DNA of 28,213 nucleotides from a virus. Made by a program: the position numbers and the translations under genes. This document shows positions 4,110 to 17,228 of this stretch, one piece after another (the stretch's first letter is position 1; every line of letters starts with the position of its first letter). The DNA is taken from IMG/VR virus record IMGVR_UViG_3300002144_000048, positions 1 through 28,213 of that record, one strand, 5' to 3'. Under the pieces are notes generated by a model. The model saw only the letters and a program-made list of their open reading frames with translations, was not told where the DNA came from and made no database searches.

Positions 4110-5039
4110 ATGACATACAGCATAACCATATTTAAGAACCAATATGACAACAAGACTCATCGGCGTCTTGATATTGAATCATGGGATCAGTTTAAATCGC
4201 TGTTCTATAAGATGTCGGAACGATCATTAAAAGGAAAGAAAGATGCGGAACTTATTTCTCCAGCTATTTACGAAACTGGATCTACACGAGCCAATAAAAA
4301 TGTATTGGGTTGGGCAGGTTGGGCTGCTGTTGACGTTGATGACTGGCTCTTTGAAGGAAATCTAAAAGATGAACTTAATACTCGTTTCCCTACTTGGACT
4401 TACATTTGTTACAGTACTGCTAGTTCGACGGCAGATCATCCTAAGTTCCGACTCATATTCAGACTTAATAGGACGATTGGAAATAGTGAAATTAAACATT
4501 TCTGGTTTGCCCTCCAGTCAGTCATGGACGAAGCAGGCGATAAGCAATGCAAGGATCTCAGCAGAATGTATTACGTCCCTGCAGAATACACTGATTCTAA
4601 CAACTTCATTTGGGATCATGATGGCGTTGCTATTGATGTGGACAATCTACTCAAAAGATATCCGTATAGTGAAAAGCGAAACGCAACAAACTTCCTTGAT
4701 AGATTACCAGATGCTTGGCGAGAACAAATAGTAGAGCACAGAAAATCTCAGCTAGATAATACTGATGTTTACTGGAATAGCTATCAAGACTGCCCGTTCT
4801 GGCCAAAGAAACTTGCTACAGACTATATGACTATATCAAGTACTGGTTGGTATACTAAGATGTATCAGATCATGATTGCTCTTGCAGGCAATGCGATTAA
4901 AAGACAGTACCCTATCACACCTACGCAAATCGCTCAACTGTGTAAGCAGTTTGATGTTGAAACTGGTAACTGGTACGAGAATAGACCACTTGAAGTAGAA
5001 GCAAATAACGCATTGGAGTATGCATATAGAAATGGATAA
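4110..5039 (+). CDS. Putative archaeo-eukaryotic-type primase (AEP-like) with C-terminal helical domain
   Basis: A 309-residue protein with features of AEP-superfamily primases: an acidic AAVDVDDW strand (D75, D77), a Ser/His strand STASSTADHPKFRLIF (H110, R114) and DLSRMYYVP (D149, R152). These would be the metal-binding and nucleotide-binding motifs. The C-terminal 60 residues (GNAIKRQYPITPTQIAQLC to the end) resemble the PriCT helical domain found after such catalytic cores. It lies directly after the DNA polymerase, and the window shows no T4 gp61 (DnaG-type) primase. Family assignment is by motif recognition. It could instead be an inactive relative or a Rep-like protein. The start has almost no leader after the promoter. 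Confidence 0.55.
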   Translation: MTYSITIFKNQYDNKTHRRLDIESWDQFKSLFYKMSERSLKGKKDAELISPAIYETGSTRANKNVLGWAGWAAVDVDDWLFEGNLKDELNTRFPTWTYICYSTASSTADHPKFRLIFRLNRTIGNSEIKHFWFALQSVMDEAGDKQCKDLSRMYYVPAEYTDSNNFIWDHDGVAIDVDNLLKRYPYSEKRNATNFLDRLPDAWREQIVEHRKSQLDNTDVYWNSYQDCPFWPKKLATDYMTISSTGWYTKMYQIMIALAGNAIKRQYPITPTQIAQLCKQFDVETGNWYENRPLEVEANNALEYAYRNG

Positions 5040-5220: not shown

Positions 5221-5441
5221 CAGGTGCATCTCGTGATTTAGAACAGAGCATAATGGAATGTTGGAATGTATGTGAGGACTTAGGTACCGTATATAGGCAA
5301 GTGTGTGATGGTGAGCGAGAGCCTACCATAGATGAAATCACAAATGCTTTGATGGGTATGCAACAGTTATATCAATGGAAATTTGAACAGCTGTTTTTTA
5401 CATATGAAGAAGCACTGAAGAAAGGGCTAAGGAGAGAATGA
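5217..5441 (+). CDS. Small hypothetical protein, 74 aa (GTG start)
   Basis: A 74-residue acidic helical protein with two cysteines near the start ([11 protein letters not shown]). It begins with GTG at 5217, overlapping the preceding stop (GTGA), with AAGGA about 7 bases upstream. The C-terminal helix ([21 protein letters not shown]) is amphipathic. Its stop overlaps the cupin start (ATGA). No known family is recognised. Confidence 0.65.
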
Positions 5442-5779
5442 TTGCTGGTAAAGTATGGGGCAATACCGAACTTATAGAAGCCAATGGCGCACTTGAGTTT
5501 CATCGTATTGAAATGAACAAGGGTGGTGTTTGTTCTAAACACCTGCATGAGTTTAAATGGAACGGGTTCTATGTTGAATCAGGTCGTATGCTTATTCGTG
5601 TATGGCAAAACGACTATAGTCTTGTTGATGAAACAGAACTACAGATTGGTCAATACACTAAGGTAAAGCCTGGTGTGTATCATCAGTTTGAATGCCTTGA
5701 AGACGGTGTAGCATTTGAACTATACTGGGCAGAGTTTAACCATAACGATATCAAAAGGGAGACAGTCGGGCATGGATAA
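5438..5779 (+). CDS. Cupin protein, mannose-6-phosphate isomerase-like
   Basis: A 113-residue single-domain cupin. The first motif is [15 protein letters not shown] (metal ligands H35 and H37), the second is PGVYHQFE (H82). The opening [10 protein letters not shown] and the [16 protein letters not shown] run are typical of cupins related to type II mannose-6-phosphate isomerases. Such enzymes interconvert fructose-6-phosphate and mannose-6-phosphate with a metal ion. A phosphomannomutase two genes downstream fits that reaction. An alternative is another sugar-phosphate isomerase or a non-enzymatic sugar-binding cupin. It overlaps both neighbours. Confidence 0.7.
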
Positions 5780-5987: not shown

Positions 5988-6325
5988 TGAAATATGTAAT
6001 CGACATCGACGGCACTATCTGTAAAGAAGTTATTCTTCCTAACACTGGTGGTAAAAAAGACTATGCCAATCATATTCCAATGCCAGAGCGTATTGCAAAA
6101 GTAAATGCGTTATATAATGCGGGACACACAATTAAGTATATGACTGCTCGTGGCTGTGTTAGTGGCATTGACTATTATCAACTAACAAAAGATCAACTAG
6201 TAAACTGGGGCGCAAAGCATCATGAATTAAGCGTAGGCGAGAAAGAAAACTACGACATCTGGATTGACGACAAAGCATTCTGGAGTGAGAACTTCTTCCG
6301 TGAAACAGGAGAAACTTATGAGTAG
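5987..6325 (+). CDS. Small HAD-superfamily phosphatase
   Basis: A 112-residue minimal HAD hydrolase. Motif I is DIDGT (nucleophile Asp and acid/base Asp), motif II is the threonine in YMTARG, motif IV is WIDDKA. It resembles short HAD proteins linked to capsule or sugar biosynthesis, and in marine phages often seen near sugar genes. Starting at 5987 (TAATG) puts motif I at residues 5-9, the normal distance, so the upstream in-frame ATG 5975 is disfavoured. It probably removes phosphate from a sugar phosphate or nucleotide; the substrate is unknown. It overlaps the aldolase by 8 nt. Confidence 0.8.
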   Translation: MKYVIDIDGTICKEVILPNTGGKKDYANHIPMPERIAKVNALYNAGHTIKYMTARGCVSGIDYYQLTKDQLVNWGAKHHELSVGEKENYDIWIDDKAFWSENFFRETGETYE

Positions 6326-7139
6326 ATTTATTGCAGCAATGGATCACAGTGGTGGTTCGACCGGCGGCGTACTAGAACGCTACGGACAAGAATACACCGA
6401 ATCAAACAAGATGGACAAAGTTCATGCTATGCGTTTACGAATGGTTAACTCACCTGCTTTTAATGATAAAAATATCTGGGCAGCAATCCTCTACAAAGAC
6501 ACAGTTGCACGTGGCATGGTTAACATCTTGGATGAAAAAGGCATCGATACGTTCCTAAAGATTGACAGTGGTTGTAACGAAGATGGAACACTTAAACAGT
6601 TTCCAGTAAAGCAGCTGTTAGAGTTTGCAACACAGACTGATGCAAATGGTGCTAGTATCGGTGCTAAAATATACGGTACAAAAATGCGTAGTATTGTTAA
6701 AAGTGTAGACATGGTTAGAGCAATTCTTACACAACAGTTTCAACTAGCAGAAACTATTTGTAGTTACGGACTTGTACCTATCATCGAACCAGAGGTTCCT
6801 ATTGATCATCCTGAGAAAGAACTAATTGAACAAGAACTATACGAACTATTAGAGAAGTTTTTGAATGAGAAAAAATTTAAAGTTATTCTTAAACTAACAC
6901 CTCCTGAAGTGCCTAACCTGTATCACAACCTAACAGTTAAGCATAATGTAGAACGAGTAGTGTTCCTAAGCGGCGGATACAGCACAGACGAAGCGTGTAA
7001 TAGACTCGGACTTAACGAAAATGTAAGTGCTAGTTTTAGTAGAGCATTGTCTGAAGGCTTAAATAAGGGGTTTACAGACGAACAATTTAATGATATAATG
7101 GAACATAATATACTTAGAATTGTAAAGGCATCTTCATGA
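6318..7139 (+). CDS. Class I fructose-bisphosphate aldolase (Staphylococcus Fda-like)
   Basis: A 273-residue Schiff-base aldolase, slightly shorter than the staphylococcal enzyme (296). Diagnostic stretches run in order: FIAAMDHSGGSTGGVLERYG at the N-terminus, FLKIDSG, GTKMRSIV, LVPIIEPEV, VILKLTPPEVPNLYHNL (K192 as the expected Schiff-base lysine) and VVFLSGGYSTDEA, then ASFSRAL. All active-site signatures are intact. The enzyme interconverts fructose-1,6-bisphosphate with dihydroxyacetone phosphate and glyceraldehyde-3-phosphate. The start at 6318 is set by AGGAGA (6307-6312). Placement between a HAD phosphatase and a phosphomannomutase suggests diversion of central carbon into a sugar pathway. 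Class I aldolase of this subtype is unusual in a phage. Confidence 0.9.
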   Translation: MSRFIAAMDHSGGSTGGVLERYGQEYTESNKMDKVHAMRLRMVNSPAFNDKNIWAAILYKDTVARGMVNILDEKGIDTFLKIDSGCNEDGTLKQFPVKQLLEFATQTDANGASIGAKIYGTKMRSIVKSVDMVRAILTQQFQLAETICSYGLVPIIEPEVPIDHPEKELIEQELYELLEKFLNEKKFKVILKLTPPEVPNLYHNLTVKHNVERVVFLSGGYSTDEACNRLGLNENVSASFSRALSEGLNKGFTDEQFNDIMEHNILRIVKASS

Positions 7140-7855
7140 CAAAAAGCTTTATCTTTGATGTTGACGGAACATTAACACCATCTCGTGGTAGAATTGACGA
7201 GGAATTCCGTCTGTGGTTCGCTCAGTTCTGTTGGGATAATGATGTGTATATGGTCACCGGATCAGATAAAGCAAAGACTGTTGAACAAGTCGGTGAGTAT
7301 ATTTACAATCTGTGTAAGAGAGTATACCAATGTGCTGGTAATGATATATGGGAACAAGATAATAATATCAAGAAGCCTGCATTTATGACTCTACCTGATA
7401 TTGCTGAAGAATATCTTGATCGACAACTTAACTATACCGATTGGGTGCCATTAACTGGTGCTCACTCTGATTATAGACCAGGTCTACTAAACTTTTCTAT
7501 TGTTGGTAGAAATGCCACACTAGAACAGCGCAAAATGTATTCTGATTATGATAAACAAGTTAAAGAACGGTCACGTATTGCCCAAGGATTTAATAAAAGA
7601 TTTCCTCAATACCAAGCATCTGTTGCTGGTGAAATCGGTATTGATATTACTGTAAAAGGTTGTAATAAATCTCAGATACTCAAAGACTTTGATGAAGCTG
7701 GTCTTTACTTCGAAGATATTATTTTCTTTGGTGATAAATGTGATGCTGGTGGTAATGACTATGAGATTGCCGAAGCTGTTGCATTTGGTGGTGGAAGAGT
7801 GTATAATGTAAAAGACTGGAAAGATACTTGGGTTAAACTAAAAGGAATTATATAA
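7136..7855 (+). CDS. Eukaryote-like phosphomannomutase (HAD class IIB)
   Basis: A 239-residue protein close in length to eukaryotic PMM (about 246). Motif I FDVDGTLTPSR has D8 and D10; MVTGSDKAKT follows; the cap domain has PGLLNFSIVGRNAT then YSDYDK; and FFGDKCDAGGNDYEI gives D200 and the GGND motif. This combination is characteristic of alpha-phosphomannomutase of the eukaryotic type, which converts mannose-6-phosphate to mannose-1-phosphate, the precursor of GDP-mannose. Most bacteria use the unrelated ManB/AlgC family. The start overlaps the aldolase stop (ATGA). Mutase rather than phosphatase activity is inferred from motif conservation. Confidence 0.85.
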   Translation: MTKSFIFDVDGTLTPSRGRIDEEFRLWFAQFCWDNDVYMVTGSDKAKTVEQVGEYIYNLCKRVYQCAGNDIWEQDNNIKKPAFMTLPDIAEEYLDRQLNYTDWVPLTGAHSDYRPGLLNFSIVGRNATLEQRKMYSDYDKQVKERSRIAQGFNKRFPQYQASVAGEIGIDITVKGCNKSQILKDFDEAGLYFEDIIFFGDKCDAGGNDYEIAEAVAFGGGRVYNVKDWKDTWVKLKGII

Positions 7856-7995
7856 TGTGGGCAATTCTTGTGATATCATTTGTGTCTAATATATATGGCG
7901 CATTTGAAAATAAAGATGATTGCATTGCAGCTGCAATAGATTTAAAGAGCCAAGGCATAAAAGCAGTTTGTGTTCAGATAGAGGAAAAGAAATGA
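7855..7995 (+). CDS. Small protein with hydrophobic N-terminus, 46 aa
   Basis: A short gene fitting exactly between its neighbours: ATG overlaps the preceding TAA (TAATG) and its TGA overlaps the next ATG (ATGA). The 46 residues begin MWAILVISFVSNIYGAF, a possible short membrane or signal segment, followed by a soluble part with two cysteines (DDCIAAAIDL and KAVCVQIEEKK). Small proteins of the form hydrophobic start plus YG-x-F plus C-x3-A are frequent in marine phages; function unknown. Exact coding continuity supports it as real. Confidence 0.7.
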   Translation: MWAILVISFVSNIYGAFENKDDCIAAAIDLKSQGIKAVCVQIEEKK

Positions 7996-8459
7996 AAGTA
8001 GGAATCACAGCATCTACATTTGATCTACTTCATGCAGGACATGTTATGATGCTCCGTGAAGCTAAAGATCAATGTGACTATCTTATCTGTGCTTTACAGA
8101 TTGACCCATCATTTGATAGACCAGACAAGAATAAGCCTGTTCAGTCAATTGTAGAACGCCATACTCAACTGGCTGCTGTTAGGTATGTCGATGAGGTTAT
8201 TCCCTATCTCACTGAACAAGATCTTGAAGACATTCTTAAAATGCATAACATTAATGTGCGTATTATTGGAGAAGAATATAAAGAAAGAGAATTTACCGGT
8301 AGAATCATCTGCGACCAACGCGGCATTGATATATACTTCAATAAGAGAGACCACAGGTTCTCTACCAGTGATCTGAGAGCAAGAGTATATGGCGAAGAAC
8401 TAAAAAAAGATATTGAAGGTGATACTATGGTTTTACATTCAGATAAAAATGTGGTATAA
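7992..8459 (+). CDS. Cytidylyltransferase-like nucleotidyltransferase (TagD family)
   Basis: A 155-residue single-domain nucleotidyltransferase. The nucleotide-binding site shows STFDLLHAGHVMMLREAK (HAGH at 14-17). RYVDEVIPY and RIIGEEYK follow, and STSDLR (124-129) is the ISSTxIR-type motif. Closest in pattern to glycerol-3-phosphate cytidylyltransferase, which makes CDP-glycerol; other members activate different phospho-alcohols or sugars. Starting at 7992 (ATGA overlap) gives MKVGITAS, the normal N-terminal strand; the earlier ATG 7920 is rejected. It could activate the product of the aldolase/mutase steps, but the true substrate is unknown. Confidence 0.85.
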   Translation: MKVGITASTFDLLHAGHVMMLREAKDQCDYLICALQIDPSFDRPDKNKPVQSIVERHTQLAAVRYVDEVIPYLTEQDLEDILKMHNINVRIIGEEYKEREFTGRIICDQRGIDIYFNKRDHRFSTSDLRARVYGEELKKDIEGDTMVLHSDKNVV

Positions 8460-8462
8460 GGT

Positions 8463-8765
8463 ATGATAACAGAAGAAATTGTAAGAGAAGCACTTAAAGA
8501 AGTGTATGATCCTGAACTGAGTTTAAGTGTACAAGAGCTTGGGCTGATTTATGAAGTTAATTGTGAAGACACTCATGTGCACATCAAGCATACCCTGACT
8601 AGCATGTTTTGCCCATTTGCGGAAGAAATATGCCGGGGCATATACGACACAACTAAGGCATTGGACGGAGTTGAAACAGTCAACCGTGAACTGGTATATG
8701 ATCCACCTTACAACATGGAAATGGTTCCTGAAGAAACAAGAACAATTATGGGGTGGTATTTTTAA
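8463..8765 (+). CDS. MIP18/DUF59 family Fe-S cluster assembly protein (SufT/PaaD-like)
   Basis: A 100-residue protein with the family pattern: VYDPELSLSVQELGLIYEV (DPE at 16-18), then HTLTSMFCPFAEEI with the conserved cysteine C50 before proline, and a C-terminal segment. Members help mature iron-sulfur proteins. It ends the carbohydrate operon and begins three bases after the cytidylyltransferase stop. Which Fe-S protein it serves is not clear; no obvious Fe-S enzyme lies in the window. Family call is strong, role in the phage is inference. Confidence 0.85.
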   Translation: MITEEIVREALKEVYDPELSLSVQELGLIYEVNCEDTHVHIKHTLTSMFCPFAEEICRGIYDTTKALDGVETVNRELVYDPPYNMEMVPEETRTIMGWYF

Positions 8766-8838: not shown

Positions 8839-9714
8839 ATGATAGAGAGAATTTACATACCCACTGTTCGAAGATGCGACAAACAAATTACATTCGAGAA
8901 TCTTCCTAAAGAACTTCAAGAACGAGTTGTTATGGTTATCGAAGCAAGAGAACGACATCTTTATAGTTATCCTTGCGAGTACTTGAAAATACCTGAAAGC
9001 ATAGTGGGTACTTGGACACAGTTAGCACAGACTAGATTGTTCATTCACAAACACGCTGGTGCGATTAAGTATTGTGTTGCTGATGATGATCTACCGATTA
9101 AACGAAGAAACTCTAAGTATTGGACTGAAACGTCAAATATGGAAACGTCTAAGCGATATGCTACTCAAGAAGAAATCCTGTTGATGTATGAGACTGTGGA
9201 TAAATGGTTTGATGAACCGTCTATAGGAGTTATTGGTCTTTCTGATCCAGGCACTCCACCTCAAAATAATGAGTATGTTGATACCGTAGATGTGTATGGT
9301 TATGTGTTTTATGACGGCAGAATGATATCGAAGATTATCGATGATATAGATATTTGCTCATTGAGGATAGCAGAAGATGTACTCTTTCTCTATGAGATAC
9401 TGTCTAGAGGAATAAACACTAGAAGATCTAATGAGTGGATGTATGATAACAGAAGTGCGTCTGATAAAAAGCTTGCAAAATCTAGGGTAGTCTGGACAGA
9501 AATGTATAAAGATGGTGATGAGAAGCCAGCTAATTACTACCAAAGTAAAGAGCATTACGATGCTATGAGATTCATCCAAGAGAGGTATCCCCACGGCGTG
9601 AAGATTTTTGAAAAAGATGGAAAGATGAAAAACGTTAAGTACTGGAAGAAAGTGTACAAACCTTTGGGATCTGATGGCACACCCAGCGCATCCCTTGAGA
9701 GCTTTTTCTCTTGA
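8839..9714 (+). CDS. Putative GT-A-fold glycosyltransferase with C-terminal sliding-clamp-binding tail
   Basis: A 291-residue protein. The N-terminus RIYIPTVRRCDKQITFENLP followed by RVVMVIEARE, then TWTQLAQTRLFIHKHAGAIK and the acidic YCVADDDLP (DDD at 82-84), matches the layout of the TET-associated glycosyltransferase-like protein at 11254 (strand, RAR-helix, DDN). I infer a nucleotide-sugar-dependent GT-A fold with DDD as the metal site. The last eight residues, ASLESFFS, match six of eight positions of the polymerase tail ASLEDFFG, indicating clamp docking. Acting on DNA at the replication fork follows as inference. A glycosyltransferase acting on another substrate is the main alternative. 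It has its own strong promoter. Confidence 0.6.
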   Translation: MIERIYIPTVRRCDKQITFENLPKELQERVVMVIEARERHLYSYPCEYLKIPESIVGTWTQLAQTRLFIHKHAGAIKYCVADDDLPIKRRNSKYWTETSNMETSKRYATQEEILLMYETVDKWFDEPSIGVIGLSDPGTPPQNNEYVDTVDVYGYVFYDGRMISKIIDDIDICSLRIAEDVLFLYEILSRGINTRRSNEWMYDNRSASDKKLAKSRVVWTEMYKDGDEKPANYYQSKEHYDAMRFIQERYPHGVKIFEKDGKMKNVKYWKKVYKPLGSDGTPSASLESFFS

Positions 9715-10918: not shown

Positions 10919-11254
10919 ATGTCAAGTGAAGTTGAAGAGTCAGCAGAATACGAAAACTTCTTAGGTAAGAAAGAAGAACTTCCTGAATCAGCAAATCTTG
11001 CTGACTTCTTAGGTATTCCTGCAGAAGAAGCCGATGATAAAGTATTTTGGCAGAAACATTGGCAAGGTATGCCAGAGTTTAATCAAGAAGAGAATCCACC
11101 ACACCGTAAGTTGATTATAAGCTTTCGTAGTGAAGAAGACTATCAAGAGTTTGCAACTCTGATTGGTCAAAAACTCACAAAGAAAACTAAGAGTGTCTGG
11201 CATCCAAAGCTAGATCGTGATGCTAATACACTGAAGCGGTGGGTAGAAGAATAA
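10919..11254 (+). CDS. Hypothetical protein with two FLG repeats, 111 aa
   Basis: A 111-residue protein immediately upstream of the TAGT-like gene (TAATG). The N-terminal half is acidic and holds two similar short segments, SAEYENFLGK and SANLADFLGI. The C-terminal half is a small alpha/beta domain (RKLIISFRSEEDYQEFATLIGQKL followed by KSVWHP) of a type often met in phage proteins near DNA-modifying enzymes. ATG 10919 follows the upstream TAA directly, with GGAG at 10909-10912. Possible adaptor protein; function unproven. Confidence 0.7.
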   Translation: MSSEVEESAEYENFLGKKEELPESANLADFLGIPAEEADDKVFWQKHWQGMPEFNQEENPPHRKLIISFRSEEDYQEFATLIGQKLTKKTKSVWHPKLDRDANTLKRWVEE

Positions 11255-12153
11255 TGACAAATCCCAAATATCCAGTTTATATTATTTCAAAAGGTCGACA
11301 TGAATCTATGTTGACCTCTAGATCGTTGGCACGTATGAAAGTGCCTCATTATATTGCTATTGAGCCGCAAGATGAAAAACTATACGACAAAACACTTGAT
11401 AACTTTGGCATTCGACCATATGTTACATTACTAGTTGCTCCGTTTAGTAATCATGGCGATGGTCCTGGTCGTGCTAGAAACTGGTGTTGGGATCACTCTA
11501 TCGCTCTTGGTGCAGAACGTCACTGGGTACTAGATGATAATATCGCAGACTTTTATCGTCTACAACATAACTTGCGTATTCGTGTTGAGAGTGGTGCTAT
11601 CTTTCGTGCATCAGAAGACTTTGTTGATCGCTATGAGAATGTACCAATCTCTGGGTTTCAGTATCGTTTCTTTATTGCACCAAACACTAAGTACCCACCT
11701 TTTGTAAAAAACACACGTATATATTCTACGCTTTTGATTGATAACAAATGCAAGTTTCGCTGGCGTGGTCGCTATAATGAAGACACTGACATTTGTCTAC
11801 GTGTACTTAAAGATGGTGACTGTACTATTCAGTTTAATGCATTCTTGCAAGGCAAAGCAGCTACACAGTCTGTCAAAGGTGGTAATACCTCTGAGTTCTA
11901 TCACGCAGAAAATACTGAAAATGAAAACTTTGAAAAGTCTGGATTCAATAGTCTGGGTACTGTGAACAAGTCGCAGATGCTTGTAGATATGCATCCTGAT
12001 GTTGCACGAATGGTATGGCGTTTTCGTCGTTGGCATCACCATGTCGATTACTCTTCTTTCAAACCAAATCAACTGATTCTAAAATCTGGTGTTGTGATTC
12101 CAAAAGGCGTCAATAACTATGGTATGAAGTTGACTACAAACTTTAAAGGCTAA
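11254..12153 (+). CDS. TET-associated-type glycosyltransferase (TAGT family)
   Basis: A 299-residue GT-A-fold glycosyltransferase. Diagnostic parts: VYIISKGRHESMLTSRSL strand-helix at the N-terminus, PHYIAIEPQ, GRARNWCWDHSIALGAERHW, the DxD-type VLDDNI (D94, D95), and YNEDTDICLRVLKDGDCT (E176, D177, D179) near the catalytic site. This pattern is that of phage TAGT proteins, which were predicted to glycosylate hydroxymethylated or otherwise modified bases in DNA. No TET/JBP oxygenase is in this window, so any acceptor base would have to be made elsewhere. The start is TAATG; ORF extension to GTG 11239 is not favoured. Family call good, DNA as acceptor is inference. Confidence 0.75.
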   Translation: MTNPKYPVYIISKGRHESMLTSRSLARMKVPHYIAIEPQDEKLYDKTLDNFGIRPYVTLLVAPFSNHGDGPGRARNWCWDHSIALGAERHWVLDDNIADFYRLQHNLRIRVESGAIFRASEDFVDRYENVPISGFQYRFFIAPNTKYPPFVKNTRIYSTLLIDNKCKFRWRGRYNEDTDICLRVLKDGDCTIQFNAFLQGKAATQSVKGGNTSEFYHAENTENENFEKSGFNSLGTVNKSQMLVDMHPDVARMVWRFRRWHHHVDYSSFKPNQLILKSGVVIPKGVNNYGMKLTTNFKG

Positions 12154-12245: not shown

Positions 12246-12770
12246 ATGACAAAAAATGTTTCACAACGAGATTCGACTTTTAAAGGCGGCATTCAAAAAG
12301 GCACAACTGCTTTTGATGTTGCTAGTAAAAAACTAGATAAACAATTGAAAGAGTCTTTTGATGTATTGTCTAAATCTTATTCGCAATATGAAGTTTGTAA
12401 ACAGTTTACCAAAGAAATGAAAATCAAATATATTGGTGATGATTGTTTTGGCTTTGCTCCTGATGGCGGCGCATGGTTTAAAAATGGCAAGTTAGTTGCA
12501 GTGTTTGAAGCCAAGAAACAAGGCAAACTTGGTAATGCTAATGAACGCTGGTATGATAATGCCGACACGGCAAAATATATAAACAAAGACGTTGTTTATG
12601 TTACCTTCTGTTCTGGTGCTGGTGCTGCGCCTGGCGAGTGTCTTGATAAGATGCGAAGAAAAGCTACTATCACTAAAGGCAAAAACTTTAAGTTTTTTAT
12701 GAATCCAGTTGGTTTTACCGACAATGAAGTTCTGTCGGTTATGGAAAATGTGTTGAAAGAAATAGTATGA
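12246..12770 (+). CDS. EcoRI-like type II restriction endonuclease (PD-(D/E)xK)
   Basis: A 174-residue nuclease. The catalytic core reads FAPDGGAWFKNGKLVAVFEA followed by KKQG: P72-D73-G-G, E88-A-K90, matching the PDGG and EAKHQG of EcoRI (D91, E111, K113). The following GNANER (96-101) matches GNAIER of EcoRI, whose N141, A142, E144 and R145 read the AATT core. EcoRI itself is 277 residues, so this is a compact form with a shortened loop between the two blocks and no obvious C-terminal arm. The stop overlaps the methyltransferase start (ATGA). Strong shared promoter. Alternative: a stand-alone host-degrading nuclease with no sequence-matched methylase. Confidence 0.75.
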   Translation: MTKNVSQRDSTFKGGIQKGTTAFDVASKKLDKQLKESFDVLSKSYSQYEVCKQFTKEMKIKYIGDDCFGFAPDGGAWFKNGKLVAVFEAKKQGKLGNANERWYDNADTAKYINKDVVYVTFCSGAGAAPGECLDKMRRKATITKGKNFKFFMNPVGFTDNEVLSVMENVLKEIV

Positions 12771-13693
12771 AACCATTATATATGTGGGCAGGCGGTAAGA
12801 ATAAGATGATTTCAAAATACTTACTGTCTCCTGGCATACCTTTGGCTGGATATGATACGTTTGTTGAACCATTCTTTGGTGGTGGAGCTATGATGATTTG
12901 GGTTAATGAAAACAATCCAAACATCAAACGCTTTGTTTTAAATGATATCAAAGAAGAACTCGTAGGAATATATGTTGCCATAAAAACAGATGTTGATAAC
13001 TTTATTAAAAAGTTAGATGCTCTATCAGCTTTATACATACCATTAGATAAAGCTGAACGTAAAATATTCTTCTATGATCTAAGAACACCTTACGCCACAA
13101 ACACCCACGGTCTTAATAAAACAGACGAAAGCGCAACTCTTTATTTTCTTATGAAGACTGCTTTCAATGGTATTTGGCAAAGTACCAAACGTGCAAATGG
13201 TAGATTTGATACTCCTTTTGGATTGGGTAATCAAAAGACAGTTGTTTACGATAAAGATAACGTTTTAGAATGGCACCAGTTTTTACAGAGGGTCGACATC
13301 ACTTGTGGTGATTGGAAAGACTCATGTAAGATTGTTGAAGAGAAAGCATTCTACTTTATGGACCCTCCTTACAGAGATAGCTTTACAAGTTATGGCGAAG
13401 GCTTTACCGATGCAGATCATCAAACTCTAATAGAGTATTGTGTACAAAAAGATTTGCAAGGTAATATTGTATTTTACTGTAATAGGGATGATGCACAAGA
13501 TGGCTTCTTTGATGCACACAAAGCACATCTAAACGACAGCTACTTTGACATTAAGTATACTGCTGGGCGTAGAGCCACTGAAAAAGACAAAGATGGCAAT
13601 CCTATCCTAGACGAAGATGGTAACAATAGACGTACAGCAAAAGCAGCAAAAGAAATATTGCTGCACACAACTCTTGCCATTAAAAACATCTAA
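12767..13693 (+). CDS. D12-class (Dam-like) DNA adenine methyltransferase
   Basis: A 308-residue N6-adenine methyltransferase of the alpha/D12 class. It begins MKPLYMWAGGKNKM (WAGGK, the AdoMet-binding start), has motif I FVEPFFGGGAMM, the class-typical YFLMKTAFNGIW and the catalytic motif IV DPPY (199-202). The C-terminal part has a charged insertion (EKDKDGNPILDEDGNNRR) followed by KEILLHTTL. All key residues are present. The class includes Dam, DpnM and EcoRV methylase; the target cannot be read from the sequence. Coupled by ATGA to the EcoRI-like nuclease, it most simply is its protective partner. Confidence 0.9.
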   Translation: MKPLYMWAGGKNKMISKYLLSPGIPLAGYDTFVEPFFGGGAMMIWVNENNPNIKRFVLNDIKEELVGIYVAIKTDVDNFIKKLDALSALYIPLDKAERKIFFYDLRTPYATNTHGLNKTDESATLYFLMKTAFNGIWQSTKRANGRFDTPFGLGNQKTVVYDKDNVLEWHQFLQRVDITCGDWKDSCKIVEEKAFYFMDPPYRDSFTSYGEGFTDADHQTLIEYCVQKDLQGNIVFYCNRDDAQDGFFDAHKAHLNDSYFDIKYTAGRRATEKDKDGNPILDEDGNNRRTAKAAKEILLHTTLAIKNI

Positions 13694-13708: not shown

Positions 13709-14662
13709 ATGACACATATTATGGTAACAGGTGGTGCAGGATTTATTGCGTATCATCTCATCAACTCTTTAGTTGAAAATGGATATGAGGTATCAGCATT
13801 TGATAGCTTCAATCATTACTATGATCCAGAACTAAAGAGAGATCGTGCTGATAAACTAAAAGACCTTGGTGTTGATGTAGCGTTTGTTGATCTAAAAGAT
13901 CGACCAGCGCTTATAAAGTTTGTTGAACATCATAAGCCAGATATCGTAATGCACTTAGCTGCTTATGCTGGTGTTCGCCATTCACTCAAAGATCCACAGA
14001 CTTATATTAATAACAACATCACTGGTACTCAAAATCTGATTGATGCTTGTAACAAAGCTGGTGTTGATAAAGTTGTCTATGCATCCTCGTCATCTGTTAT
14101 GGCTGGTAATCCTCTTCCGTGGAATGAAGAAGAGAAGTGTGGTCATCTGTTGAATCCCTATGGCTATTCTAAGATAACAAACGAAAATCAGTTTATGAGT
14201 AGTAATATTAAGAGTGCTATTGGGCTAAGATTCTTTACTGTCTATGGACCATGGGGTCGACCAGACATGGCTCTATTTGATTTTACTAAAAACATTGTTG
14301 CTGGTAAACCCATTCAGTTGTACAACTATGGTAATATGATTCGAGACTTTACCTATATTGATGATATTGTCCAAGGTATTCGACTCATCTTTGACGAGAT
14401 ACAGAAGCACGATAGTGTCAAAGAAATATATAATATTGGCTACGGAGAGCAAGTAAAACTAGTTGATTTCGTTGAACATATCGAAAATAACTTAGATAGA
14501 AAATCTATTAGAGATTTAGTACCAATGCACCCGGCAGACGCTCAGGCGACTTGGTCAGACACTACCAAGCTACAAAAACTAGGCTATAACCCAACTACTT
14601 CTATCGCAGAAGGAGTGCAGAAATTTATTGAGTGGTACAAAATGTATTATAATATCAACTAA
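13709..14662 (+). CDS. NAD-dependent UDP-glucuronate 4-epimerase-like protein
   Basis: A 317-residue extended short-chain dehydrogenase. Rossmann motif TGGAGFIA (8-14, last Gly replaced by Ala), FDSFNHYYDPELK, MHLAAYAGVRHSL, YASSSSVM, catalytic Y151xxxK155, and the strongly diagnostic GLRFFTVYGPWGRPDMALF and IRDFTYIDDIVQGI. These are hallmarks of epimerases turning UDP-glucuronate into UDP-galacturonate. With the UDP-glucose dehydrogenase at 15386 it would give a two-step UDP-glucose to UDP-galacturonate route. The A14 substitution may alter NAD binding only mildly. It starts 15 bases after the methylase stop, so it shares its operon. Confidence 0.85.
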   Translation: MTHIMVTGGAGFIAYHLINSLVENGYEVSAFDSFNHYYDPELKRDRADKLKDLGVDVAFVDLKDRPALIKFVEHHKPDIVMHLAAYAGVRHSLKDPQTYINNNITGTQNLIDACNKAGVDKVVYASSSSVMAGNPLPWNEEEKCGHLLNPYGYSKITNENQFMSSNIKSAIGLRFFTVYGPWGRPDMALFDFTKNIVAGKPIQLYNYGNMIRDFTYIDDIVQGIRLIFDEIQKHDSVKEIYNIGYGEQVKLVDFVEHIENNLDRKSIRDLVPMHPADAQATWSDTTKLQKLGYNPTTSIAEGVQKFIEWYKMYYNIN

Positions 14663-15330
14663 TGTTTAATCATATCACACTAGAGGATAGACTTCCCGAA
14701 CTTGAAGTAGAAACAGCGCCTACTGGCAGAACATATAAAACACCAGATGGTAAAAAGTATCCATCAGTGACTACTGTTCTTGGTGAAGAGAGTAAAGCAG
14801 GCATTCTTGCTTGGCGTAAAAGAGTAGGTGAAGAAGAAGCTAATAAGGTATCGTTTCAAGCTTCTTCACGTGGCACAAGTGTGCACACACTTGCAGAGAA
14901 CTATATTAATAATGATCCAGAATGGTCTAAGGGCGCTATGCCCACGAGTATTTACGCTTTCAATCAAATCAAATCTATCTTAGATGAACGTATGAATAAT
15001 ATATACGCTCAAGAGGTACCACTGTACAGCGACAAACTTGAGGTTGCTGGTAGAGTAGACTTGATTGCTGAGTGGGATAAAGATCTGGCTATCATTGACT
15101 TTAAGACGGCACGTAAGCCAAAGAAAGAAGAATGGATTCAAGGCTACTTTATGCAATGCGCTTTCTATGCTGCAGCATTCTATGAAAGAACTGGTGTTGC
15201 TATTAAAAAAAGTGTCATTCTAATCACTGTAGATCATAATGAGCCACAGGTGTTTATTACTAAACCTTATGACTATCTAGGTAGCTTCATTAAGGTCAGA
15301 CAGAAATATAGAAACATTTACGGATTTTAA
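14662..15330 (+). CDS. PD-(D/E)XK exonuclease (RecB/Cas4-like)
   Basis: A 222-residue nuclease. Visible motifs: SSRGTSVHTLAENY (H75), AGRVDLIAEW (D133), AIIDFKTARKPK (D146, K148) and the QCAFYAAAFYERTG helix (Q165), the order seen in Cas4/RecB-type single-strand exonucleases of marine T4-like phages. It probably processes DNA ends in recombination or host DNA breakdown. The start is TAATG. It lacks the four-cysteine Fe-S cluster of Cas4 proper. Its stop lies four bases before the next promoter. Confidence 0.8.
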   Translation: MFNHITLEDRLPELEVETAPTGRTYKTPDGKKYPSVTTVLGEESKAGILAWRKRVGEEEANKVSFQASSRGTSVHTLAENYINNDPEWSKGAMPTSIYAFNQIKSILDERMNNIYAQEVPLYSDKLEVAGRVDLIAEWDKDLAIIDFKTARKPKKEEWIQGYFMQCAFYAAAFYERTGVAIKKSVILITVDHNEPQVFITKPYDYLGSFIKVRQKYRNIYGF

Positions 15331-15333
15331 GTG

Positions 15334-15362
15334 TTTACATAAAGACGTTTATGTGTTATAAT
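15334..15362 (+). promoter_or_regulatory. Promoter with internal 7-bp inverted repeat for the UvsX-gp41-ThyX operon
   Basis: TTTACA (15334-15339), 17-bp spacer, TGt, TATAAT (15357-15362). ACATAAA (15337-15343) and TTTATGT (15348-15354) form an inverted repeat spanning the -35 edge and the spacer, a place where a bound repressor would block polymerase. AGAGG precedes ATG 15386. Confidence 0.8.
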
Positions 15363-15385
15363 AAAATATCAACACTAGAGGTAAC

Positions 15386-16207
15386 ATGAAAACTAAAATC
15401 GCAATCATTGGGCATGGCTTTGTTGGCAAAGCTGTTGAGTATGGATTTACACATCCAGGCGTAGAACTTCATATCGTTGATCCAAAGTACGGAACAACAG
15501 TTGATGATCTGCCTGTCTGTAACTACTATTTCGTTTGTGTCCCAACACCATTTGGTTCTGACGGCACGATTGATACGACTATTCTAGATGATGTGATGGA
15601 AAAACTTGTCGCAGTCAACGGCATAGTTATTATTAAATCAACTGTCACGCCAGATGTTATTACTAAATGGCACAATCATATCGTTTACAATCCAGAGTTC
15701 TTGACTGAGAAATCTGCTAACGAACAGTTTGTTAGCCCAGAGTTTCATATCTTTGGTGGGTTTGAAGTGTACACAGATGAGATAGAACGGCTGTATAAAG
15801 AGTTCTCATTATGTACACCATGCCCAGCATTACATATGTCTCTTGAAGAAGCCAGCTTTGTAAAGTATACTATCAATAGTTTTCTTGCTATGAAAGTAAC
15901 ATTCTTCAATCAACTATACGACACAGTAAAAACAACTCGTGCTAACTACGGCACTATTATTAAGGCTGTTGGCTTTGATAAACGTATTGGACCTAGTCAC
16001 ACAAAAGTACCAGGCTTTGATAAACGTCAAGGCTACGGTGGTGCTTGCTTTCCAAAAGACACATCGGCGTTTGTTAGTTACAGTAAACGCTTGACATTAT
16101 TAGAGAAATGTATTAAAATAAACAATACATATCGCTCACAGTACGAACTAGATGAAAGAGAGAAAGAACAGCATGTCGATTATGGACAAACTAAAGAAGA
16201 ACTCTAA
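15386..16207 (+). CDS. UDP-glucose/GDP-mannose dehydrogenase-like protein, C-terminal domain missing
   Basis: A 273-residue protein. Rossmann motif IIGHGFVG (G9, G11, G14), FVCVPTPF, IIKSTVTPD, YNPEFLTE, the central helix FVKYTINSFLAMKVTFFNQ and the active site GYGGACFPKD (C221, K224, D225). These are all UDP-glucose 6-dehydrogenase signatures. Full-length family members have 390-450 residues; here the UDP-binding C-terminal domain is replaced by a charged 30-residue tail. It would oxidise UDP-glucose to UDP-glucuronate if the truncated form is active. It overlaps UvsX by 35 nt. GDP-mannose dehydrogenase activity is an alternative. Confidence 0.8.
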   Translation: MKTKIAIIGHGFVGKAVEYGFTHPGVELHIVDPKYGTTVDDLPVCNYYFVCVPTPFGSDGTIDTTILDDVMEKLVAVNGIVIIKSTVTPDVITKWHNHIVYNPEFLTEKSANEQFVSPEFHIFGGFEVYTDEIERLYKEFSLCTPCPALHMSLEEASFVKYTINSFLAMKVTFFNQLYDTVKTTRANYGTIIKAVGFDKRIGPSHTKVPGFDKRQGYGGACFPKDTSAFVSYSKRLTLLEKCIKINNTYRSQYELDEREKEQHVDYGQTKEEL

Positions 16208-17228
16208 GATTAAAACCACAGACATTCTATCTGAATCTAAGTTCTTTAACGAAAAAACTATGACACCCACAGACGTTCCTATGGTGAACGTTGCGCTATC
16301 TGGTTCTATTGATGGTGGACTAGCTCCAGGTCTACTGGTACTCGCTGGTCCATCTAAACACTTTAAGACTTCATTTGCTTTGCTCATGGCAGGTGCATAT
16401 CTTAAACAGTATCCAGATGCTGTGATGTTATTCTATGACTCAGAGTTTGGTTCTCCTCAGTCATACTTCACACAGTTTGGCATTGATACATCTCGTGTTC
16501 TTCATACACCTATTGCCAATGTTGAAGAACTAAAGTTTGATATTATGGGGCAGCTTGAAGCCTTAGATCGTGACGATAGAGTTATTATTGTTATCGACTC
16601 TATTGGCAACATGGCATCTAAGAAAGAAATGGAAGATGCGCTAAACGAAAAGTCAGTAGCAGATATGTCACGAGCCAAAGCACTCAAAGGCTTGTTCCGT
16701 ATGACAACACCATATCTGTCTATGAAGAATATTCCATTGATTGCTGTTAACCACACATATATGGAAATCGGGCTGTTCCCTAAAGCTATCGTTGGTGGTG
16801 GCACTGGTATATACTATTCGGCAGATAATATCTGGATTCTTGGTCGTCAACAAGATAAAGTTGGTACTGAGATTAAAGGTTATCACTTTGTTATTAATGT
16901 GGAGAAATCACGCTTTGTTAAAGAAAAATCAAAAATACCCATCTCTGTTTCTTGGGAGGGTGGGGTTCAACGCTGGTCTGGGCTGCTTGAAGTTGCTCTT
17001 GCTGGTAAGTATGTTGCTAAACCAACTATTGGCTGGTACCAATCAGTTGACCAAGAAACTGGTGAACTTGTTGGACCGAAATATAGAGAGAAGGACACAC
17101 TCACAGAAGAGTTCTGGAAACCAATCTTAGAAAATACAGACTTCAAAGACTTTGTGCAAAAACAATACTCTATTGGTCACGCTTCGTTGATTGATATGGA
17201 TTCTATTGTCGAGGAAGCAAATGATTAG
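16173..17228 (+). CDS. uvsX: UvsX RecA-like recombinase
   Basis: A 351-residue recombinase closely following T4 UvsX (391). It begins MSIMDKLKKNSKIKTT, then SKFFNEK, VNVALSGSIDGGL, Walker A GPSKHFKT (59-66), LFYDSEFG, Walker B IIVID (138-142), NMASKKEMEDALNEK, VNHTY and VGGGTGIYYSAD. The start at 16173 fits the UvsX N-terminus; an in-frame ATG at 16152 adds a non-conserved extension. It catalyses strand exchange and recombination-dependent replication. The acidic C-terminal tail of T4 UvsX is shortened (ends EEAND). It overlaps the preceding gene by 35 nt. Confidence 0.95.
   Translation: MSIMDKLKKNSKIKTTDILSESKFFNEKTMTPTDVPMVNVALSGSIDGGLAPGLLVLAGPSKHFKTSFALLMAGAYLKQYPDAVMLFYDSEFGSPQSYFTQFGIDTSRVLHTPIANVEELKFDIMGQLEALDRDDRVIIVIDSIGNMASKKEMEDALNEKSVADMSRAKALKGLFRMTTPYLSMKNIPLIAVNHTYMEIGLFPKAIVGGGTGIYYSADNIWILGRQQDKVGTEIKGYHFVINVEKSRFVKEKSKIPISVSWEGGVQRWSGLLEVALAGKYVAKPTIGWYQSVDQETGELVGPKYREKDTLTEEFWKPILENTDFKDFVQKQYSIGHASLIDMDSIVEEAND

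Follow-up and report, generated by a model that had tools for sequence, protein, structure and literature searches.

Here we report that a sea-phage fragment of 28,213 nucleotides (28 kb, hereafter the window) encodes a UDP-glucuronate 4-epimerase-like enzyme and a short nucleotide-sugar dehydrogenase in its replication region, between the primase gene and uvsX. Judging from gene content and gene order, this pair is probably a donor-sugar cassette in an exchangeable DNA-hypermodification slot of marine T4-like phages, through which a uronic acid would be delivered to a DNA base. The genes, catalytic residues, domain loss, gene order and associations described below are directly established; from them we infer which substrates the enzymes would act on, what would be formed on DNA, and which transferase would use the donor in the window. 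The features concerned are as follows.

4110..5039, + strand: primase-like protein, bounding the modification slot on the left (phrog_9765, 1.1e-44)
5438..5779, + strand: cupin, WbuC-like, weak (TIGR04366, 1.2e-5, under the model cut-off)
6306..7139, + strand: class I fructose-bisphosphate-aldolase-like protein (NF003784, 7.6e-70, under the model cut-off)
7136..7855, + strand: phosphomannomutase-like HAD protein, PMM (PF03332, 5.7e-25)
7992..8459, + strand: cytidylyltransferase-like nucleotidyltransferase, CTtrans (PF01467, 9.9e-13)
8839..9714, + strand: second, divergent TAGT-like protein (PF20691, 4.1e-6; phrog_842, 4.1e-11)
11239..12153, + strand: TET-associated DNA glycosyltransferase, TAGT1 (PF20691, 1.8e-44)
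12767..13693, + strand: D12-class N6-adenine DNA methyltransferase (PF02086, 1.5e-30)
13709..14662, + strand: UDP-glucuronate 4-epimerase-like SDR enzyme, 317 aa (PF01370, 8.7e-53)
14662..15330, + strand: PD-(D/E)XK nuclease, between epimerase and dehydrogenase (PF12705, 1.4e-8; phrog_298 exonuclease, 2.7e-76)
15386..16207, + strand: short nucleotide-sugar dehydrogenase, UDP-glucose-dehydrogenase (UGDH)-like, 273 aa (PF00984, 2.7e-17; PF03721, 1.6e-11)
16152..17228 (likely start 16173), + strand: UvsX recombinase, bounding the slot on the right, recognised through its relatives in the conserved gene order

The first-pass annotation had placed the nuclease between the epimerase-like and UGDH-like proteins and named C221 as active-site residue; coordinates and identities hold against profiles, PDB matches and an alignment of relatives. 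Both the NAD-binding and the central dimerisation domains of the dehydrogenase are present by profile and fold match, the PF03721 match spanning residues 45-127 only, and its model (pLDDT 95.1) superposes on Cj1441 (7kws_A; Z 25.3, rmsd 2.8, 261 residues). Alignment to 1dli equates T86, E104, E108, K160, N164, C221 and D225, without exception, with the UGDH catalytic residues, which in the S. pyogenes enzyme are T118, E141, E145, K204, N208, C260 and D264. The catalytic Cys221 sits in GGACFPKD, and the same seven residues together with R200 are invariant in 32/32 aligned relatives, which extend down to 46% identity with the window protein. The C-terminal UDP-binding domain (PF03720) is absent from the dehydrogenase and, by profile search, from the rest of the window record; a complete catalytic core lacking this domain is likewise found in 72/72 complete relatives first collected. 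A separate gene supplying the domain was looked for and not found, PF03720 being detected in 0/25 short-enzyme records searched and in 2/2 full-enzyme phages. Because PF03720 is missing, we name the protein UGDH-like and do not count it as a full UDP-glucose 6-dehydrogenase member; against the NDP-sugar dehydrogenase model TIGR03026 it reaches 2.1e-39, yet its 135.5 bits lie below the cut-off of 189.8. Domain loss is accompanied by a loop ahead of the catalytic Cys that is longer by 4-5 residues (18 residues in 73/73 phage forms and 17-18 in 52/55 other short forms, against 13 in 18/20 full-length forms). The phage enzymes form one clade with SAR86-type short forms, the short form being common to SAR86 and Patescibacteria, and UDP-glucose is the most likely predicted substrate.

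The epimerase has an SDR fold with the catalytic Ser and YxxxK present, as seen in SSSSV and YGYSK, and carries the motif FTVYGPWGRPDM. Its best PDB sequence matches are 5u4q (4e-73), 6zl6 (1.5e-45) and MoeE5 (6kv9, 1.7e-36), of which the top match is named a dehydratase, yet aligns with the GRPDM motif, itself found in 26/26 phage epimerases compared and 2/9 cellular neighbours. In 6zl6, the B. cereus UDP-glucuronate 4-epimerase, the carboxylate site is formed by T126, S127, S128, T178 and R185; at the aligned positions the window protein carries S, S, S, T and R, a single conservative change. Identification as a dTDP-glucose dehydratase, GalE or UDP-xylose synthase was rejected, with NCBIfam scores under cut-off and PDB matches mostly lower-scoring. 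In the tree, the window epimerase joins the epimerases of AGT (T4-type DNA alpha-glycosyltransferase), X344 and TAGT contigs (support 90-93, not starred) and falls outside the simple-pair clade (97 starred). With catalytic residues complete in both enzymes, which argues for the cassette reading, the dehydrogenase would oxidise a nucleotide hexose, most likely UDP-glucose, at C6 via a Cys221 thiohemiacetal to yield the uronic acid, the epimerase would act at C4 to hold UDP-galacturonate in equilibrium with UDP-glucuronate, and a DNA glycosyltransferase would transfer the uronic acid onto a hydroxymethylated base. That the two reactions may run in series, as proposed earlier, gains support from the many relatives in which epimerase and dehydrogenase directly adjoin.

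The place of the pair is conserved. Among 80 loci picked by uvsX alone, a sugar or DNA-modification gene occurs in 37/41 whole primase..uvsX intervals and in 0/60 uvsX..thyX intervals of like length, and the UGDH-uvsX order, with uvsX no more than 1 kb downstream of the dehydrogenase, is kept in 74/74 judged viral relatives, so that chance is no explanation for the arrangement; these counts are not independent, since the records are fragments and mostly from one phage group. In relatives, the cupin stays with PMM and CTtrans in the order cupin-PMM-CTtrans-UGDH. The position of the nuclease between both enzymes is not kept in the listed relatives, its own relatives lying elsewhere (in the complete relative C48C1, at L084:2626, and near TAGT in L206, L210, L212 and L213). 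Further slot contents include TET-ADDT (L321), UDP-galactopyranose mutase (UGM) with TAGT (L175), and TET-X344-UGM; these act on DNA or DNA sugars and are counted for the modification-slot reading.

X344, a 344-aa partner of TET and UGM, occupies the place where other loci have AGT. Its model reaches a pLDDT of just 59.6, and its best PDB match is weak (E 1.9e-2), some matches being glycosyltransferases; all its viral matches at E < 0.001 are unnamed or uncharacterised, and its sequence profile found no trustworthy relative.

The link to DNA glycosylation is clearest in relatives with AGT (PF11440, 2.1e-52; T4 AGT 1xv5, 2.4e-62). Of 36 loci picked by AGT alone, 31 were judged, and 14 of these 31 carry AGT-epimerase-dehydrogenase in that order, 11 of the 14 also with a C5 DNA methyltransferase; the remainder comprise 11 with AGT then C5 methyltransferase without the pair and 6 with none. 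The pair-bearing AGT proteins (n=16) fall into 5 clusters at 90% identity and 3 at 70%. Four contigs (L366, L371, L373, L375) share the row CTtrans-dCMP hydroxymethylase-deaminase-AGT-epimerase-dehydrogenase-C5 methyltransferase-uvsX, and the hydroxymethylase of L289 matches T4 gp42 (1b49, 5e-72). Because the pair shares a gene row with DNA-sugar enzymes in related phages, the DNA of such phages may bear a coat of acidic sugars. Several observations count against the cassette reading. Among the 80 loci nearest the window dehydrogenase, only 2 have one or more of seven DNA-modification genes in the sequence covered. Neither AGT nor a thymidylate-synthase-type enzyme (PF00303) was found in the 28-kb window record or in complete C48C1, and neither TET nor a C5 methyltransferase in the window, which is a fragment; the enzymes making the hydroxymethylated base and adding a first sugar were likewise not found in the 28 kb, the base-making enzyme adjoining the pair in relatives. 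Within the firmly aligned region of AGT, no residue marks the pair-bearing enzymes; two columns differ fully between pair-bearing and other AGTs, both in gapped stretches.

In the window itself, TAGT1 would be the sole strong candidate transferase for the donor within 28 kb. It scores 152.5 bits against PF20691 (curated cut-off 27.5) and shares 73-85% identity across nine aligned viral relatives, while the second TAGT-like protein is borderline (27.3 bits against 27.5; 28.1 together with its neighbours). Records containing both TAGT and the dehydrogenase are rare, which also speaks against the cassette and makes TAGT a poor witness for the identity of its donor sugar: TAGT is present in 1/49 records bearing the short dehydrogenase, the dehydrogenase domain in 1/50 TAGT records, and the dehydrogenase, by tblastn, in 0/80 TAGT loci; CTtrans occurs in 11/80. 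One further contig (L279, 13.3 kb) carries TAGT (2.5e-38) plus PMM-CTtrans-epimerase-dehydrogenase-uvsX. Co-occurrence with TAGT was therefore dropped as proof of donor. The T6 enzyme is described as glucose-adding in the accessible text of PMC13216743. The earlier suggestion of an acidic donor for the TAGT enzymes thus divides: the AGT-type relatives (14/31) strengthen the case that a uronic acid is the donor for DNA, and TAGT as its user is not supported by the counts above.

The uronic acid might instead serve a non-DNA glycan, either in the host envelope, where capsule or LPS would be remodelled to ward off superinfection, or on a virion glycoprotein, which we regard as unlikely. In SAR86, the nearest cellular short dehydrogenases stand at the front of surface-polysaccharide clusters, adjoining Wzz, NusG and GT2 genes, a setting that also counts against the cassette, and 76 cellular neighbour proteins include CTtrans (11), MannoseP_isomer (10), epimerase (10) and Wzz (7); moreover, one glycosyltransferase of C48C1 belongs to PHROG 1962 (category moron/host takeover), and a DNA glycosyltransferase is seen in only a minority of pair-bearing records. 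However, both genes map to the replication region, beside AGT, dCMP hydroxymethylase or C5 DNA methyltransferase in several lineages, and a profile scan of ten window proteins recognised neither Wzz nor a GT2-type transferase. One candidate locus, in which a short dehydrogenase of Microbacterium phage Jayden adjoins a glycosyltransferase, was left out of the evidence because its weak TAGT-PHROG match (7.8e-4) was unconfirmed by profile comparison (0.5% probability, one side a single sequence).

Less probable still is that the short enzyme is no UDP-glucose dehydrogenase and oxidises another substrate, such as a DNA-attached hexose or the sugar or polyol, CDP- or ADP-linked, that CTtrans would make. 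The consistent absence of PF03720 and the longer loop fit such a change, as does CTtrans, directly upstream (within 600 b) in 27/68 judged phage loci and a common cellular neighbour; yet the enzyme keeps the sugar-site residues of UDP-glucose dehydrogenase, and the partner in AGT rows and many others is an epimerase whose UDP-glucuronate-type motif accords with a UDP-hexuronate product. It seems very improbable that the two genes are hitch-hikers or relics with no part in modification: different phages have one, both or neither partner, and neither stands beside the dehydrogenase in 9/68 judged loci, but the invariant catalytic residues and the fixed pre-uvsX place point to selection.

The cassette reading resembles T4-type glucosylation of 5-hydroxymethylcytosine (gp42 plus AGT, to which T6 adds TAGT), in that relatives combine AGT with a gp42-like hydroxymethylase in one row and the window has TAGT. 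T4 takes UDP-glucose from its host, whereas the phage here brings its own enzymes that would convert it to a uronic acid, and its TAGT is accompanied by neither AGT nor hydroxymethylase in the 28 kb. The same two predicted reactions and catalytic residues occur in the bacterial capsule route to UDP-GalA (UDP-glucose 6-dehydrogenase plus UDP-glucuronate 4-epimerase), the phage dehydrogenase differing in being short and of the SAR86-type clade. For Bacillus phage SP-15, the accessible text of PMC5977210 describes glucuronolactone-phosphate on a thymine analogue and phosphoglucuronate on dihydroxypentyluracil. A phage-encoded UDP-glucose dehydrogenase and uronic acid on DNA (here predicted) are common to both systems, but the SP-15 enzyme, from a glucuronate-bearing phage, is full length (436 aa) with the PF03720 domain that the window enzyme lacks, which weighs against the cassette, and its sugar is phosphodiester-joined to a thymine analogue and its gene cluster differs from that of the window. 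In arabinosyl-cytosine phages RB69 and NP, sugar-nucleotide genes beside a DNA glycosyltransferase yield a non-glucose sugar on cytosine; the sugar enzymes are others, the available portions of these papers describe no phage dehydrogenase or uronate step, and a UDP-glucuronate route for RB69 is discussed there merely as one possibility (PMC6024577, PMC13390438).

More specifically, and with slightly less than even confidence, we propose that marine T4-like phages put alpha-galacturonosyl or glucuronosyl groups on 5-hydroxymethylcytosine via an AGT- or TAGT-type transferase, the donor coming from a minimal dehydrogenase that has shed its UDP domain and lengthened its substrate-side loop, and that the slot swaps donor cassettes (uronate, galactofuranose, others) to give a changeable, extra-negative sugar coat on DNA. 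Besides SP-15 (PMC5977210), the open-access texts searched, as far as accessible, describe neither this gene arrangement nor uronic acid on hydroxymethylcytosine. The novelty first claimed for the decoration accordingly narrows: uronosyl-hydroxymethylcytosine would be new, and glucuronate on DNA is known in SP-15 by other chemistry. If the sugar is acidic, each decorated cytosine would gain extra negative charge, with possible effects on how the DNA is packaged and bound by proteins, and on its recognition by DNA glycosylases and type IV restriction enzymes that act on neutral-sugar DNA. The AGT-epimerase-dehydrogenase row makes the question of which sugars phage DNA carries testable with two or three genes, and the short dehydrogenase would illustrate the extent to which a nucleotide-sugar enzyme can be reduced and still function.

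The whole 28,213-base record, itself a fragment, is T4-like: it encodes a recognisable DNA polymerase, primase-like protein, UvsX, gp41-type helicase and ThyX, in an order matching that of relatives. The first-pass annotation had placed UDP-glucuronate-4-epimerase-like and UDP-glucose-dehydrogenase-like enzymes (hereafter the pair) near TET-associated DNA glycosyltransferases (TAGT, PF20691), and domain searches bear out both enzymes.

8839-9714: TAGT, borderline, upstream of the pair
11239-12153: TAGT, strong (TAGT1), upstream of the pair
13709-14662: UDP-glucuronate-4-epimerase-like protein (PF01370, 8.7e-53)
between the epimerase and dehydrogenase genes: PD-(D/E)XK nuclease
15386-16207: UDP-glucose-dehydrogenase-like protein (PF00984, 2.7e-17; PF03721, 1.6e-11)

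Cupin, aldolase-like, phosphomannomutase-like and cytidylyltransferase-like (CTtrans) genes also lie upstream of the pair; neither TET nor C5 methyltransferase was found in the window. A SufT/PaaD-like Fe-S assembly protein (8463-8765; TIGR02945, 3e-25, below the model cut-off) separates CTtrans from the second, borderline TAGT-like gene, and a phrog_2400 protein without assigned function (12246-12770) overlaps the start of a D12 adenine methyltransferase.

The window dehydrogenase retains the full set of catalytic residues. From the first residue of its catalytic GGACFPKD motif it runs for about 55 residues to its end, and PF03720, the UDP-binding domain, is missing. The initial collection of 72 complete phage ORFs consists of similarly short forms throughout (269-370 aa, 50-85 residues from motif to end). 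In a search for PF03720, 25/25 short-form records, including the complete 156-kb phage C48C1, were negative, and SP-15 and Kuja, the two full-length controls, were positive. A genome scan, biased towards short forms because its patterns derived from a short-form alignment, divided cells similarly: SAR86, Neomarinimicrobiota, Patescibacteria and further groups have short forms (263-335 aa), and full forms of at least 430 aa occur in the remainder. The loop from a conserved Arg to the catalytic motif is longer in short forms: 18 residues in 73/73 phage forms and 17-18 in 52/55 other short forms, as against 13 in 18/20 full forms. The exceptions are two short and one full form that are likely pattern artefacts, one short form without a recognised Arg, and L124, a long form whose reading continues into an unrelated stretch. 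The predicted structure (pLDDT 95.1) resembles UDP-glucose dehydrogenases (Z about 25 over about 260 residues, rmsd 2.8).

In a quick tree, the marine phage dehydrogenases form one clade (97, starred), adjoined by SAR86-type short forms (joint support 96, starred). Two nominally cellular sequences inside this clade (L091, L092) have phage gene neighbours; their contigs, with the phage order gp43, uvsX, gp41, thyX, occur in MAGs labelled Rhodobacteraceae and Sphingobacteriales, which reflects either phage sequence assigned to a bacterial bin or a possible clue to the hosts. Elsewhere, Campylobacter phage CP220 encodes a 256-aa short dehydrogenase-like protein (L087:5992-6762) near a QueE-like radical SAM gene. 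Microbacterium phage Jayden carries a row of ParB-like protein, glycosyltransferase and 261-aa short dehydrogenase (L089:1596-3798), the last unlike marine forms around the catalytic motif; its glycosyltransferase is present in 56 Microbacterium phage records.

PDB matches of the epimerase include 6zl6 (1.5e-45) and MoeE5 (1.7e-36), both UDP-glucuronate 4-epimerases. At the carboxylate-binding positions of 6zl6 the window protein has S, S, S, T and R, with one conservative change. The GRPDM motif around this Arg is present in 26/26 phage forms, and RPDM in 2/9 cellular neighbours. An epimerase tree places the window protein (support 90-93, not starred) with those from AGT (T4-type DNA alpha-glycosyltransferase), TAGT, X344 (a 344-aa protein) and a single CTtrans contig; the simple-pair epimerases form a clade of their own (97, starred) that does not include it.

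Among 80 loci picked via the dehydrogenase, its neighbour within 600 b upstream was an epimerase in 32, CTtrans in 26, both in 1 and neither in 9 (68 judgeable), and uvsX lay within 1 kb downstream in 74/74. A second sample of 80 loci was picked via uvsX, so that sugar genes did not drive selection; 37/41 whole primase-to-uvsX intervals contained one or more sugar or modification genes (dehydrogenase 28, epimerase-type 21, CTtrans 17, C5 methyltransferase 5), as against 0/60 uvsX-to-thyX intervals of similar length. One such slot (L321:3778-9867) holds TET and an amino-acid:DNA transferase (ADDT), both with known DNA roles, together with an inositol-1-phosphate-synthase-like protein and CTtrans, possibly a further DNA decoration. 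TET/JBP dioxygenase, X344 and UDP-galactopyranose mutase are adjacent in C48C1 (L001:33278-36725) and in L257-L275, which suggests galactofuranose decoration of DNA; of 19 viral relatives of the C48C1 X344, 17 have TET on the locus and 17 the mutase.

The pair is linked to DNA glycosyltransfer by loci encoding AGT. In L345 the order is AGT, epimerase (63% identical to the window protein), short dehydrogenase (54%), C5 DNA methyltransferase and uvsX, the dehydrogenase gene overlapping that of the methyltransferase; this AGT is homologous to the T4 alpha-glucosyltransferase (PF11440, 2.1e-52; 1xv5, 2.4e-62). A scan with it gave 36 loci, 31 with enough downstream DNA: AGT-epimerase-dehydrogenase occurs in 14, with the methyltransferase next in 11 of these, AGT and methyltransferase without the pair in 11, and neither in 6. 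Clustering of the 16 pair-bearing AGT proteins yields 5 groups at 90% identity and 3 groups at 70%. Two loci (L392, L393) are instead arranged thyX-AGT-epimerase-dehydrogenase-CTtrans, and in four (L366, L371, L373, L375) the row is preceded by CTtrans, dCMP hydroxymethylase and dCMP deaminase. L035, L289 and L290 place an X344-like protein at the position that AGT takes in other loci, followed by the epimerase, with CTtrans-dehydrogenase-uvsX on the same contig; the L289 hydroxymethylase matches T4 gp42 at 5e-72.

TAGT is a weak witness for its donor. It occurs in 1/49 short-dehydrogenase records. Among the 80 loci nearest to the window TAGT, tblastn showed none with the dehydrogenase, 2 with the epimerase and 11 with CTtrans; the dehydrogenase domain was detected in 1 of the 50 of these records that were searched for it. 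L279 combines TAGT (2.5e-38) with CTtrans-epimerase-dehydrogenase-uvsX; L174 and L175 have TAGT and CTtrans in the primase-to-uvsX interval without the dehydrogenase, whose place UDP-galactopyranose mutase takes in L175.

The first-pass annotation had left two destinations for an acidic sugar, DNA or the host envelope. Against a DNA role, any of seven DNA-modification genes is seen in only 2 of the 80 loci closest to the window dehydrogenase, within the sequence available (median 8.5 kb per locus), and cellular relatives of the short dehydrogenase are located in polysaccharide clusters. Of 47 records, 12 contained PF00303 and 6 contained AGT, the latter 6 having been selected for AGT; neither was detected in the window or C48C1. 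In SAR86 loci including L103, L108 and L112, CTtrans lies immediately upstream of the short dehydrogenase; in L112 it is fused to a mannose-6-phosphate-isomerase-type cupin, parts which phages have as separate genes.

Base-making and first-sugar enzymes were not found on the 28,213-base fragment. Among published systems, phage SP-15 DNA already bears glucuronolactone phosphate (PMC5977210), the T6 TAGT adds glucose (PMC13216743) and cytosine with arabinose is known (PMC13390438), and no description of uronosyl-hydroxymethylcytosine was found in the portions of the open-access literature searched. The most likely product of the cassette is a UDP-uronic acid destined for DNA, for which TAGT1 would be the candidate user in the window.
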